NCBI GenBank assembly: GCA_021199135.1
Contig: JAJQIQ010000195.1
Span: 1-11,396 of the forward strand
DNA length: 11,396 nucleotides
Direction of reading: 5' to 3'
Origin: Clostridiales bacterium
GTDB taxonomy: Bacteria > Bacillota > Clostridia > Lachnospirales > Lachnospiraceae
Part shown: in pieces, positions 220-3,368 of the stretch
Layout: each line of letters starts with the position of its first letter
Numbering within the stretch: position 1 is the stretch's first letter
The notes under the pieces: model-generated
The model's database searches: none
Told to the model about the DNA's origin: nothing
What the model saw: only the letters and a program-made list of their open reading frames with translations
Position numbers and translations under genes: made by a program

Positions 220-1326
220 CTACACAGCATTGAAATTAACCGGCAGAATCACGTAGATGTACTTCTTCGCCTCGTCGCGGATGAAACACGGCGCCTTCGG
301 GTTCACCATGTACAGCGTGATCTCCTCGTCATCGATGGCGCGCAGCGCGTCGATGAAAAACTTCGGATTGAAGCCTATGAGGATGTCCTTGCCGCTCTTC
401 TCGATGTCGAGGCTCTCATTCATCGACCCGACGAACGTCGTGATGCGGAGGTCTACCCTGCCGTCCTCGAAATTCAGGATGATTGGCTTCTTCTCACCCT
501 CGCGGATCATCAGAGTCGCACGGTCGATGCAGTCGAGGAATCGCTTCTTGTTTATCGTGACTTTCGTCTCGTAGTCGTCGGAAAGCATCTGCTCCACCCT
601 GAAGTACTCACCCTCAATCAGACGGGAGACTACCGTCGTCTGGTCAAACTCAAACACGATGTGATTCTGCGCCAGGTATATGTCCACATCGTCGTCGATG
701 CTGCCCGGGATGATCTTGCTTATCTCGTTTAAGGTCTTCGACGGCACTATGACTTTCTTGTGCTCGTAGTTCTCCTTGAGGCCGATGTTTCTTATGGAGA
801 TGCGGTGGCCGTCCAGCGACACCACCTTGAGGATGTCGTCCTCCACCTCGAAGAGTTCGCCCGTCATGACTGGACTGGCCTCGTTGTCGGAGACGGAGAA
901 TATTGTCTGACGAATCGCTTCTTTTAAGGTGAACTGCGATATCGAGATTGCCCTGTTCCTCTCGACGAACGGAATATAGGAGAAGTCGTCCCCAGACTTT
1001 CCGATGATGTTGAACTTCGCCGACTCGCAGGTAATCACGGTCTTGAAAGATGAGTCCGTCTCGATGGTGACGTCGCTGTCGGGAAGTTTTCTCACTATCT
1101 CAGAAAATATCCTGGCGTCGAGGGCTATCACCCCCCTCTCCATTATGTCCCCGTCGAGGATGGTCTCTATTCCGAGTTCCATGTCGTTCGCCATCATCTT
1201 GATCTCGCCAGCGGAGGCGTCAATCAGGATACATTCGAGTATAGCCATGGTCGTCCTCACCGGAACAGCTTTCGACACTGTGTTTACTCCGAGCAGGAGG
1301 TTTGACTTTGAACAGATCAGTTTCAT
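220..1326 (-). CDS. dnaN: DNA polymerase III subunit beta (sliding clamp)
   Basis: This 368-residue protein has the normal length of the bacterial beta clamp, a ring-forming dimer that tethers DNA polymerase III and other client proteins to DNA. It starts MKLICSKSNLLLGVNTVSKAV, the usual first strand and helix of domain I. Three repeated clamp folds of about 120 residues each can be traced (roughly 1-120, 125-245, 246-368). Landmarks include LDGHRIS near residue 171, VPSKTL near 194 and the C-terminal ILPVNF, equivalent to the MPxRL/LPVR segment that lines the client-binding pocket; here the arginine position is an asparagine. The ATG at 1326-1324 has GGGAG (1335-1339) 8 nt upstream. It follows dnaA on the same strand after a 273-bp gap that holds origin elements, and is followed by yaaA. 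No clear separate promoter was identified, because the gap is very AT-rich. Confidence 0.98.
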   Translation of the reverse strand: MKLICSKSNLLLGVNTVSKAVPVRTTMAILECILIDASAGEIKMMANDMELGIETILDGDIMERGVIALDARIFSEIVRKLPDSDVTIETDSSFKTVITCESAKFNIIGKSGDDFSYIPFVERNRAISISQFTLKEAIRQTIFSVSDNEASPVMTGELFEVEDDILKVVSLDGHRISIRNIGLKENYEHKKVIVPSKTLNEISKIIPGSIDDDVDIYLAQNHIVFEFDQTTVVSRLIEGEYFRVEQMLSDDYETKVTINKKRFLDCIDRATLMIREGEKKPIILNFEDGRVDLRITTFVGSMNESLDIEKSGKDILIGFNPKFFIDALRAIDDEEITLYMVNPKAPCFIRDEAKKYIYVILPVNFNAV

Positions 1327-1351: not shown

Positions 1352-1402
1352 TTGTGTATATAAATAATATAAGATATCCGTAACAGTAATAATAGGGGGC
1401 GT
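1352..1402 (+). other. Probable origin unwinding element: GC spacer, DnaA-trio and AT-rich tract
   Basis: Reading from the DnaA box at 1408-1416 toward dnaN, there is a GC-rich spacer (GGGGGC at 1395-1400), then on the plus strand five consecutive triplets in register at 1381-1395: TAA CAG TAA TAA TAG. Read 3' to 5' these are GAT, AAT, AAT, GAC, AAT, matching the known DnaA-trio consensus (3'-G/A-A-T) in four of five. Next comes an AT-rich tract (1352-1377) containing TATATAAATAATATAAGATA, suitable as a duplex-unwinding element. This box / GC-cluster / trio / AT-tract order is that of the basal origin unwinding system of Bacillus subtilis, which also lies between dnaA and dnaN. The motifs are directly visible; origin activity is inferred. 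Confidence 0.72.
1353..1361 (-). promoter_or_regulatory. Near-consensus DnaA box inside the AT-rich tract
   Basis: ATATACACA on the minus strand differs from the consensus TTATNCACA at one position. It overlaps the AT-rich tract proposed to unwind, so it may be a weak site or simply part of the AT-rich sequence. Confidence 0.4.
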
Positions 1403-1407
1403 TCATA

Positions 1408-1416
1408 TGTGTATAA
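1408..1416 (-). promoter_or_regulatory. Consensus DnaA box next to the unwinding element
   Basis: TTATACACA on the minus strand matches TTATNCACA exactly and is the best DnaA box in the window. It points toward the DnaA-trio at 1381-1395, the orientation needed to load a DnaA filament onto the trio strand. It lies between GGGGC (1396-1400) and GCCCC (1417-1421), which could pair as a 5-bp stem with the box in the loop when single-stranded. Confidence 0.72.
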
Positions 1417-1599: not shown

Positions 1600-2961
1600 C
1601 TAGTTCGGATTTATCTTCTTTTTGATGGTCTCTATCAGGTTCCTGGTGGCTTCGTCCGTCTCGTATTCCTCGCTTATGCGCTTGATTCCGTGGATGATCG
1701 TGGAGTGGTCGCGGTTGCCGAGCAGCTGGCCGATCGCATCGAGCGGCCTGTCCGTCATGTTCTTGCAGAGGTACATAGCAATCTGGCGCGGCTTTGAGAA
1801 TTCCTTGCTGCGCTTCTTCGATATCATCTGGTCGACCGTGAGGTTGAAGTGCTCCGACACGACCTCGATGATGAGTTGCGGGGTGATTTCGCGAGGCTTG
1901 TCGGGCGTGATGATGTTTGCGAGCTCCTTCTCGGCGATATCCATAGTGAGAGGCTCGTGGACAAGGTTGTTGTAGGCAATCAGCCGGTTCAGGGCTCCCT
2001 CGAGCTCGCGGACGTTGTACTTGATGTTGCTGGCGATATAGTTTAAGATATCGTCGCTTATCTTGAAATCATCGGTCTCGGCTTTCTTGCGGATGATGGC
2101 CATGCGCGTCTCGTAGTCCGGGAAGCCGATGTCCGCCATCAGTCCCCACTCGAAACGGGAGCGGATCCTCTCCTCGAGGGTCTCCATCTCCTTCGGGGGC
2201 TTATCGGAAGTGAGGATGATCTGCTTGCCCTGCGTCTGGAGAGCGTTGAAAGTGTGGAAAAACTCTTCCTGGGTGCTCTCCTTTCCTATTATGAACTGTA
2301 TGTCGTCGATTATGAGGACGTCGACTTTGCGGTACTTGTCGCGGAACTTCGTCATCGCGGAGGAGTTGCCGTTGCGGATGGACTCGATGACCTCGTTCGT
2401 GAACTCCTCGGAGGTCACGTAGATGACCTTCAGTTGTGGGTTCTTGGAGAGGATGAAGTGGCCGATCGACTGCACGAGGTGCGTCTTGCCGAGCCCTGGG
2501 CCTCCGTAAATATACAGCGGATTATAAGCCTCGCCGGGAGATTCCGCGACCGCGAGCGATGCGGAGTGGGCGAAGCGGTTGTTGTTGCCTACTACAAATG
2601 TATCAAAAGTATAATTAGGATTTAAGTTTGAGTCCTCAAGGGAGGACTTTGTCTTGGTCTCTTTCATTTCGACGCGGGCATCTACGTCCCCGAGAGACTT
2701 AGTCTCCTCCGGCAGTATGAACTCGATGTCGTACTCGATCTTCGTGATCTCCACGATAGCGACACGGAGAGGGGAGAGATACTTTTTTTTGATGTAGCTG
2801 AGCGCCATCTGCTCTGACGGTACGAGGATGTAGAGGGTGTTACCCTTGATAGCATAGACTTCGAGAGGGCGCAGCCAAGTGTCGAAAGAGACGTCGCTGA
2901 TGTCGTGCTCGGTCTTCACCATGTTCAGTATTTCGTCCCATTTTTCGATTATTTCGTCCAT
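1600..2961 (-). CDS. dnaA: Chromosomal replication initiator protein DnaA
   Basis: This 453-residue protein has normal length and all four DnaA domains. Domain I (about 1-82) mediates self-association and helper binding; domain II (about 83-113) is a short charged linker. Domain III (about 114-340) is the AAA+ ATPase, starting at YTFDTFVVG, with Walker A GGPGLGKT at 153-160, Walker B VLIIDD at 215-220, sensor 1 around ILTSD (249-253) and the arginine-finger region RIRSRF (265-270). Domain IV (about 357-453) binds DnaA boxes and carries the signature NRDHSTIIHG at 416-425. It opens origin DNA to start replication and also acts as a transcription factor. The ATG at 2961-2959 is the only reasonable start, although its ribosome-binding site is poor. 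The gene is transcribed away from rpmH, with DnaA boxes on both sides, so autoregulation is likely. Confidence 0.99.
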   Translation of the reverse strand: MDEIIEKWDEILNMVKTEHDISDVSFDTWLRPLEVYAIKGNTLYILVPSEQMALSYIKKKYLSPLRVAIVEITKIEYDIEFILPEETKSLGDVDARVEMKETKTKSSLEDSNLNPNYTFDTFVVGNNNRFAHSASLAVAESPGEAYNPLYIYGGPGLGKTHLVQSIGHFILSKNPQLKVIYVTSEEFTNEVIESIRNGNSSAMTKFRDKYRKVDVLIIDDIQFIIGKESTQEEFFHTFNALQTQGKQIILTSDKPPKEMETLEERIRSRFEWGLMADIGFPDYETRMAIIRKKAETDDFKISDDILNYIASNIKYNVRELEGALNRLIAYNNLVHEPLTMDIAEKELANIITPDKPREITPQLIIEVVSEHFNLTVDQMISKKRSKEFSKPRQIAMYLCKNMTDRPLDAIGQLLGNRDHSTIIHGIKRISEEYETDEATRNLIETIKKKINPN

Positions 2962-2965
2962 CGTG

Positions 2966-2979
2966 TCCTGTAAACTCCT
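2966..2979 (-). promoter_or_regulatory. Suboptimal ribosome-binding region of dnaA
   Basis: Two candidates precede the dnaA ATG: AGGAG at 2979-2975, 13 nt away and therefore too far, and AGGA at 2969-2966, only 4 nt away. No upstream in-frame start codon lies close by that would suit AGGAG better. Neither is ideal, which suggests inherently weak dnaA translation. Confidence 0.5.
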
Positions 2980-3036
2980 GTATAATAGAATAGTGCTCTA
3001 AAAAAGAGCGCAAGTATCCATCGTCGTATAAATGTA

Positions 3037-3065
3037 ATTTTACACTATTTTGTGAATTAAATCAA
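3037..3065 (-). promoter_or_regulatory. dnaA promoter
   Basis: On the minus strand TTGATT (3065-3060) and TAAAAT (3042-3037) are separated by 17 bp, a good vegetative sigma-factor match. Transcription would begin near 3030, giving a leader of about 70 nt that includes a small GCTCT/AGAGC hairpin (3009-2995). A DnaA-box-like sequence (3051-3059) lies in the spacer, where bound DnaA could repress its own gene. Confidence 0.65.
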
Positions 3066-3134
3066 GTTAAATCAAGACATACTTTATCGATTGAGCGTCC
3101 AGTTATCAACAATTTCTCCACAAAATGAGGATAA
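3051..3134. other. DnaA box cluster upstream of dnaA (origin component)
   Basis: Four 9-mers each one mismatch from TTATNCACA lie here: TAATTCACA (minus, 3059-3051), TTATCAACA (plus, 3103-3111), TTCTCCACA (plus, 3114-3122) and TTATCCTCA (minus, 3134-3126). The last three start 11 and 12 bp apart, about one helical turn each. Together with AT-rich flanks and the divergent dnaA and rpmH promoters this resembles the upstream half of a bipartite Firmicutes origin. Whether it helps initiation or mainly controls dnaA transcription cannot be decided from sequence. Confidence 0.65.
3057..3076. repeat. Two-copy 10-bp tandem repeat over the dnaA promoter -35
   Basis: TTAAATCAAG occurs twice back to back without mismatch. 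On the dnaA strand each copy contributes a TTGATT hexamer, and the inner copy supplies the -35 element of the dnaA promoter. The 10-bp period would place a bound regulator on one face of the helix. Confidence 0.75.
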
Positions 3135-3158
3135 CTTTAAAAATATTGACTTTATGCC

Positions 3159-3186
3159 TTGACTTGCAAAATTTTTCTGATATAAT
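3159..3186 (+). promoter_or_regulatory. rpmH promoter with extended -10
   Basis: TTGACT at 3159-3164 and a perfect TATAAT at 3181-3186 are spaced by 16 bp, and TG at 3178-3179 provides a TGnTATAAT extended -10. This is the strongest promoter seen in the window and fits a highly expressed ribosomal protein gene. The start site would be near 3193, giving a leader of about 40 nt before rpmH. Confidence 0.85.
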
Positions 3187-3233
3187 TGCTATTGATGTTT
3201 TTTGTAATTTTGGAAAGAGGGAGGTAGATTGCC

Positions 3234-3368
3234 GTGAAGATGACATACCAGCCGAAGAAAAGGCATAGGAAAAGAGTGCATGGTTTCCGCAAGAGAATGA
3301 GCACGGCTTCCGGGAGGAAGGTACTGGCAGCAAGGCGTCGGAAGGGAAGAAAGCGTTTATCAGCTTAG
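3234..3368 (+). CDS. rpmH: 50S ribosomal protein L34
   Basis: The 44-codon product begins [20 protein letters not shown] and ends KGRKRLSA; it is the full-length, extremely basic L34 protein of the large ribosomal subunit. The usual L34 signature (TYQPKxRxRKRxHGFRxRMxTxxGRKVLxxRRxKGRxRLSA) is complete. The start is GTG at 3234, with GGAGGT at 3220-3225 and 8 nt spacing; the ATG two codons later is too close to be needed. It is the first gene of the plus-strand cluster, driven by the extended -10 promoter, and is followed by a hairpin with a T-run that probably ends much of its transcription before rnpA. Divergent arrangement with dnaA is the standard origin layout. Confidence 0.98.

Follow-up and report, generated by a model that had tools for sequence, protein, structure and literature searches.

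The gap between dnaA and dnaN in this member of the Lachnospiraceae raises the question of where, base by base, its chromosome is opened by DnaA, and which sequence code the initiator reads in doing so. The DnaA-trio was reportedly defined in a 2016 Nature paper, and in Bacillus subtilis the basal unwinding system (BUS) is located between dnaA and dnaN, with which the clostridial comparison agrees. In the B. subtilis BUS, according to a structural study, the two leading bases of every trio flip out into a pocket between neighbouring DnaA subunits, where Asn187 contacts the middle A through its amino group; a middle C allows strand separation near the native level and faster growth than G or T, G and T giving lower strand separation, and with C working in B. 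subtilis this 2023 paper raised a wider trio code as a possibility (PMC10721633). In a survey that required three or more middle-A trios a BUS was predicted in 1755 of 2070 origins, and its authors suspected that deviant trios without a middle A exist (Pelliciari et al. 2021, PMC8287927).

Structure of the element between dnaA and dnaN

The window, that is the whole stretch of 11,396 nucleotides analysed here, has a GC content of 54.6% and constitutes one contig of a draft genome of 1.57 Mb in 262 contigs that is 74% complete. The closest named DnaA records are those of Eubacterium ramulus (66% DnaA identity), of Blautia and of entries labelled Lachnospiraceae. The gap between the two genes measures 273 bp and contains, read on the dnaA-to-dnaN strand, box 1, box 2, CCCC, the triplets CTA TTA TTA CTG TTA CGG and an AT-rich tract (Table 1), with box 2 sharing one base with box 1.

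Table 1. Features of the dnaA-dnaN region and its surroundings, in coordinates of the window
Feature	Position	Strand	Basis and remarks
DnaA box 1, TTATACACA	1408..1416	minus	sequence; columns 0-8 of genus alignment
DnaA box 2, degenerate, ATATGAACG	1400..1408	minus	columns 8-16 of genus alignment; tandem across the family
4-bp GC spacer, GGGG on plus (CCCC dnaA-to-dnaN)	1396..1399		sequence; genus alignment
Six DnaA-trios, CCG TAA CAG TAA TAA TAG	1378..1395	plus	sequence; family comparison; trio 1 = TAG (1393-1395), trio 6 = CCG (1378-1380)
AT-rich tract, predicted unwinding region towards dnaN	1352..1377		GC 12%; also AT-rich in genus alignment
dnaA	1600..2961	minus	453 aa; TIGR00362, 540.9 bits
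dnaN	220..1326	minus	368 aa; TIGR00663, 250.8 bits
dnaA-rpmH gap	2962..3234		five DnaA-box-like sites at one mismatch, zero perfect boxes; GC 32%

An initial annotation had described a complete unwinding architecture at this place, and its consensus DnaA box at 1416-1408 on the minus strand as well as its AT-rich tract are borne out by the sequence. The GC-rich spacer, which it had put at 1395-1400, has to be narrowed to the four bases listed in Table 1, since TAG of trio 1 fills 1393-1395. The five plus-strand triplets assigned to 1381-1395 are all present and in register, but the array is longer and comprises at least six triplets; the boxes, spacer, trios and tract thus exist, while box 2 and the CCG triplet had been missed. 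Of the five triplets one was said to deviate, and in this triplet, CAG (3'-GAC-5'), it is indeed the third base that is off, the captured G and A being canonical.

The window has a run of five consecutive middle-A trios (TAG TAA TAA CAG TAA), and only the sixth of its six trios has a middle C. The next triplet, TAT (1375-1377), again has a middle A, as in 18 of 21 genus sequences, and as consecutive triplets with a middle A or C therefore run to seven, the array might be counted as six or seven; a length of six is adopted here because the A/C rule described below breaks family-wide after trio 6. Directly after trio 6 the sequences of the genus carry a hexamer ATWTCT on the dnaA-to-dnaN strand, of which five of the six columns are identical in 17-19 of 20 sequences, and which appears in the window as AGATAT on the plus strand (1372-1377). 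The AT-rich tract contains, at its distal end, two one-mismatch boxes that overlap each other (TTATATACA and ATATACACA, 1353-1363, minus strand) and show no conservation among the aligned genus rows. A perfect match to TTWTNCACA (TTTTCCACA) is found within the dnaA coding sequence (2253-2261, minus strand).

With respect to chance, a 24-column profile comprising the boxes, the spacer and the start of trio 1 scores 31.2 at the element and 1.7 at the second-best place in the window, and none of 2000 shuffles of the gap reaches 31.2, the best of them scoring 15.9. An element in the style of the initial annotation, namely TTATNCACA, a distance of 0-16 bp and five middle-A triplets of which at least four are canonical, occurs once in the window but in none of 300 window shuffles and none of 5000 gap shuffles; dropping the canonical requirement leaves 0/300 and 2/5000, respectively. 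The consensus pattern with at most two mismatches has a single match in the 1.57-Mb, 74%-complete genome, which is this element, but the profile and the consensus-pattern tests are not independent because both were drawn from the relatives and this sequence. For the same reason, more weight attaches to the conservation among relatives.

Conservation of the geometry in relatives

For the genus, 35 other genomes yielded 20 full-strength dnaA matches, 15 being without a usable dnaA, and after omission of one locus cut by a contig end (L023) and addition of genome G351 and of the genome itself 21 gaps were available. For the family, 337 of 397 genomes had a dnaA match and 130, the present genome included, were analysed; as 100 regions came from the top of the match list, this sample leans to DnaAs whose identity is about 55% or higher. 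The other genera of the Lachnospiraceae contributed 128 loci, which gave 127 gaps (L153 lies on a contig without dnaN). The named loci were grouped by their titles and by DnaA similarity, L048 being left out as its gap extends beyond the contig. Also left out were eleven loci without dnaN (L094, L098, L101, L108, L110, L111, L246, L248, L296, L297, L323) and, owing to an 80-base minimum, L319.

The alignment of relatives' dnaA-dnaN gaps, which the initial annotation had proposed as a check, shows the triplets and the box to be kept: the box pair, the 4-bp spacer and the trio register are ungapped in all 21 genus gaps, a box-like sequence stands at the place of box 2 in 20/20 aligned genus gaps, and the geometry recurs at the anchor threshold in 123/127 gaps from other genera of the family. 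The anchor was formed by columns 0-23 (boxes, spacer and first triplet), so that trios 2-6 were free to vary; its threshold of 8, the profile and the grouping were the analyst's choice. At the same threshold, the geometry was found outside the family in 21/21 Bacilli, in 8/9 and 8/11 gaps from other families of the order, in 13/24 from other Clostridia/Bacillota, in 36/63 from the rest of the class and in 2/9 from other phyla.

Three duplicates were removed, namely the gaps of Drancourtella massiliensis and of two uncultured Lachnospiraceae, each of which recurs unchanged in the same-family set. This left 163 distinct family gaps, of which 158 lie above the anchor threshold and five (L051, L161, L163, L167, L188) below. 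The three duplicates are still contained in the 161-array counts, the 190-tip tree, the GC-matched counts, the comparison with Bacilli and the other outside groups and the comparison of the ISM loop with the C trios along the family tree, all given below. In L163 and L167 the offset from box 1 to box 2 is 9 bp instead of 8, which is probably why they fall below the threshold; their spacer and trios are of the usual kind.

The middle base of the trios in the Lachnospiraceae

In the six trios of the 158 family arrays (948 cells), the middle base is A in 599, C in 341, T in 8 and G in none, so that the trios of this family take A or C at the middle position, which DnaA is predicted to capture, whereas T is rare and G absent. 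In trio 1 the A is all but invariant (A157 C1), and the two bases alternate at trio 2 (A96 C62), trio 3 (A77 C80 T1), trio 4 (A98 C56 T4), trio 5 (A114 C43 T1) and trio 6 (A57 C99 T2). At least one middle C occurs in 133 of the 158 arrays and at least two in 107, leaving 25 with none. Beyond trio 6 the rule breaks: in the 123 sequences from other genera of the family, trio 7 has A57 C2 G4 T60 and trio 8 A57 C9 G30 T27. In the genus (n = 21) the array ends less abruptly, as trio 7 keeps a middle A in 18 sequences (T in 3), and trio 8 has a G in 17.

As the first of the captured bases, G, A and T all occur, with C in 0/126, 1/738 and 1/102 cells, and the third base is mostly T or C. Read 3' to 5', the commonest among the 805 triplets at trios 2-6 of 161 arrays are GAT (138), TAT (126), AAT (115), TCT (107), GCC (94) and GCT (80). 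Amongst the named loci, two of Blautia (L034, L035) have three C-middle trios of six each, one of Drancourtella (L040) and L042 have four, and Lachnoclostridium An169 (L039) has five (CTA AGG CGG CGA AGG CGG).

The family pattern matches the amino-group preference measured in B. subtilis and is, as far as the aligned gaps tell, seen here in natural origins. A search of the open-licence literature, with supplementary tables outside its scope, brought up no natural origin described as having middle-C trios, and no paper in that literature was found to treat the DnaA-trio together with the Lachnospiraceae.

Under the published BUS rule the window itself is a regular case, in that box 1 differs by one mismatch from TTATCCACA, where up to two are allowed, that it stands 12 bp before the TAG of trio 1, within the admitted 0-16 bp, and that five consecutive middle-A trios follow where at least three are required. 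Strand and direction of the trios, with the order box-box-spacer-CTA from dnaA to dnaN, are those of B. subtilis, for which the strand opposite the trios is given as CTACTATTACTTCTACTA in PMC10201434; the 21 Bacilli gaps agree. At least three consecutive middle-A trios 0-16 bp from box 1 are found in 58 of the 158 family arrays, a figure that comes from our own anchored test and not from a rerun of the published BUS program, which may pick another box.

Distribution outside the family and substitution pattern

Outside the family, the counts for the middle base of trios 1-6 are A118 C4 T4 in Bacilli (21/21 gaps), A71 C2 G2 T3 in other Clostridia/Bacillota (13/24), A198 C5 G2 T11 in the rest of the class (36/63), and A44 C0 G2 T2 (8/9) and A40 C0 G7 T1 (8/11) in other families of the order; these counts are rougher than those of the family, as L243 is out of register and supplies six of the seven G cells of the last group. 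Summed, C takes 11 of 516 middle cells outside the family. The two gaps from other phyla (of nine) have A10 G2, and two further members of the family from the class sample A10 C2.

Parsimony on a 190-tip DnaA tree gives, for the six middle positions, 118 changes from A to C and 53 from C to A, i.e., some 171 exchanges, along with 10 from A to T and one from A to G, the latter falling outside the family. The first and third trio positions have about 94 transitions each, and the 12 columns past the array about 84 A-to-G changes. Judging by these neighbouring columns, transitions are common enough in this DNA, but the middle position admits almost none.

Base composition contributes to the use of C, since middle C rises with the GC content of the gap within the family (Spearman 0.45, 161 arrays). 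As the sole cause of middle C it is ruled out by GC matching and by the missing G: in gaps with a GC content of 0.30-0.42, C takes 250/570 middle cells in the family, 3/108 in Bacilli, 2/24 in other Clostridia/Bacillota and 0/6 in the other families of the order.

The DnaA pocket and the ISM loop

Every DnaA aligned, i.e., 21 from the genus, 128 from the family and 18 named ones, has the equivalents of Asn187, Arg202, Lys222 and Glu228 of B. subtilis, and all 21 genus DnaAs have the full pocket set of Asn187, Ile190, Ile193, Arg202, Lys222 and Glu228. In comparison with the B. subtilis DnaA chain 8btg, by which alignment alone the insertion is placed, the ISM loop of the present dnaA product has 11 residues instead of 8 and is thus three residues longer. 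The insertion lies in the ssDNA-binding motif of DnaA. The stretch from Ile193 to Arg202 exceeds 8 residues in 159 of 163 distinct family members, the most frequent length being 11, and measures exactly 8 in all 54 comparison DnaAs (9/9, 24/24, 21/21), in 11/11 further members of the order and in 59/63 members of the class. It encloses the position of Asn196, which contacts the third trio base in B. subtilis according to PMC10721633.

Both the insertion and the middle-C trios follow the family tree. Three members of other genera of the family are without the insertion (L139, L171 and L199) and have three, one and zero C trios, respectively, and 24 of the 25 zero-C arrays come from members with the insertion. 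Three class members outside the family have longer loops (L292, 12 residues; L309, 12; L318, 15) and zero C trios, two of the three lying below the anchor threshold. The insertion and the relaxed code are therefore correlated along one branch of the tree, with L139 as an exception, and a causal link between them is unproven.

Which strand is read, and by which protein?

The A/C rule for DnaA on the plus strand could equally be written as a T/G rule on the minus strand, read, e.g., by DnaD or another helicase-loading protein, since an amino base on one strand is a keto base on the other and the strand that is read is ambiguous from sequence alone. In B. subtilis the strand facing the trios carries TnnT motifs to which DnaD binds (PMC10201434), and 57 of the 60 genomes searched, the present one included, encode a PF07261 (DnaB/DnaD domain) protein. 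The window itself has five TnnT motifs opposite the trios within 18 nt, where two suffice for a DnaD element. However, a change from A to C at the middle position destroys a TnnT motif, and only 85 of the 158 Lachnospiraceae arrays keep at least two of them, in contrast to 42/42 in the three comparison groups (8/8, 21/21 and 13/13); moreover, the biochemical data from B. subtilis place the amino-group contact in DnaA (PMC10721633). A reading of the rule on the opposite strand is for these reasons considered unlikely.

As the middle A pairs with a T of TnnT, the A of the Bacilli may be held in place by two proteins. That the code became relaxed because the DnaD gene had been lost was rejected in view of the PF07261 protein of this genome, and any relaxed constraint would thus not have come about through loss of the gene family. 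Outside the window, the gene for a DnaC/DnaI-like ATPase adjoins that of the PF07261 protein (C21:455-1999), and the two are likely to form a helicase-loading pair.

Other explanations of the element and of its middle C

The chromosome might open in the dnaA-rpmH gap, with the element at 1378-1416 merely helping, and the AT-richness and the five one-mismatch boxes of that gap (Table 1) would suit such a site. Yet the eight best profile matches of the window include none from 2962-3234, and when 47 loci, the own one included, were scanned upstream of dnaA, none of the best eight had six A/C-middle triplets after the boxes. In Clostridioides difficile, furthermore, DnaA-dependent opening has been mapped in vitro to the dnaA-dnaN gap, though both regions are needed (PMC7561715), so that opening upstream appears very improbable here; the dnaA-rpmH gap may be the other half of a bipartite origin. 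In L011 and L013 a box-like pair followed by GCCC or CCCC and CTA lies some 155 bp upstream of dnaA, the first box of L013 being poor. The high scores of these sites had raised the suspicion of a second BUS, which was rejected as the trio array is absent; they look like a copied box half of the BUS.

If only the first few trios mattered, the C triplets might be decayed and non-functional repeats, a view to which the near fixation of A at trio 1 (157/158) would lend itself, as would the description of the box-proximal trios of B. subtilis as the most critical ones in PMC10201434. Decay would, however, be expected to admit G and T as freely as C, whereas the 790 middle cells of trios 2-6 hold 442 A, 340 C, 8 T and no G, and the family-wide rule does not extend past trio 6; we therefore give this explanation little credence. 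Still less can be said for conservation on account of a leader or promoter of dnaN instead of an origin, which we hold to be scarcely credible. Trio 1 does start 69 bp ahead of the dnaN start and hence inside the dnaN leader, but a scan of the minus strand between dnaA and dnaN for sites of the sigma-70 type, the only type covered, revealed no promoter-like site, and an A/C rule with a period of three after tandem DnaA boxes would be unexpected of a promoter.

A model for origin opening and its relation to known systems

Taken together, it is likely that the element is the BUS of this Lachnospiraceae origin, and that A and C are interchangeable at the middle of trios 2-6. The parts of the element, their conservation, the A/C rule and the DnaA residues can be read from the aligned sequences, and it is by analogy with B. 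subtilis that DnaA binding, oligomer formation, base capture, opening and the choice of strand are attributed to this locus. In such a model, two DnaA molecules would bind the tandem boxes (1416-1400), their AAA+ domains creating the initial pocket where the GC spacer lies. From there an oligomer of ATP-DnaA would grow in 3' to 5' direction on the plus strand, with one subunit per triplet over some six trios from 1395 to 1378, and two bases of each triplet would be flipped into the pockets between DnaA subunits. The pocket of the family would accept middle bases that carry an exocyclic amino group, A and C being equivalent at trios 2-6 and A being kept at trio 1. Opening would then spread towards dnaN. 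The base-level prediction that the initial annotation had hoped for can accordingly be upheld as a prediction, with DnaA coating the plus strand from 1395 towards 1378 and opening proceeding into 1377-1352.

A predicted BUS of the B. subtilis kind is known in kind, and it is the trios with either A or C in the middle that are new. The likeness to the incC BUS of B. subtilis (DnaA-box 6/7 and DnaA-trios) consists of the box pair, the short GC spacer and the DnaA pocket residues. The family differs from it in that the middle base is A or C, that the first captured base is often T, that GC-rich triplets such as 3'-GCC-5' are common, that DnaA has a longer ISM loop and that the TnnT motifs of the opposite strand are often lost. 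The array of the window is nearly classical in this respect, departing from B. subtilis at trio 4 (3'-GAC-5') and trio 6 (3'-GCC-5'). The element also resembles oriC2 of C. difficile, whose opening region lies in the dnaA-dnaN gap by a predicted trio and which has a second box region upstream (PMC7561715), with the difference that opening was mapped in vitro in C. difficile and is predicted from sequence for the window.

Implications

A more far-reaching proposal would be that the Lachnospiraceae have changed their origin code, in that a DnaA with an enlarged ISM reads 3'-(G/A/T)(A/C)(T/C)-5', freed from the DnaD constraint that fixes A in Bacilli. We put this forward tentatively, as a possibility about which we are doubtful on balance. 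If it were true, many origins thought to be devoid of trios would have trios under the wider code.

The repeated swaps between A and C, with no G and few T, constitute natural evidence for the recognition of an amino group. Origin finders could be widened with a middle A or C, and the arrays of the family are ready-made test substrates, with opening sites predictable to the base in many gut bacteria. As DnaA and DnaD would each read a different strand of this 18-base stretch, the pattern of the Lachnospiraceae also offers a route to telling the requirements of DnaA apart from those of DnaD.
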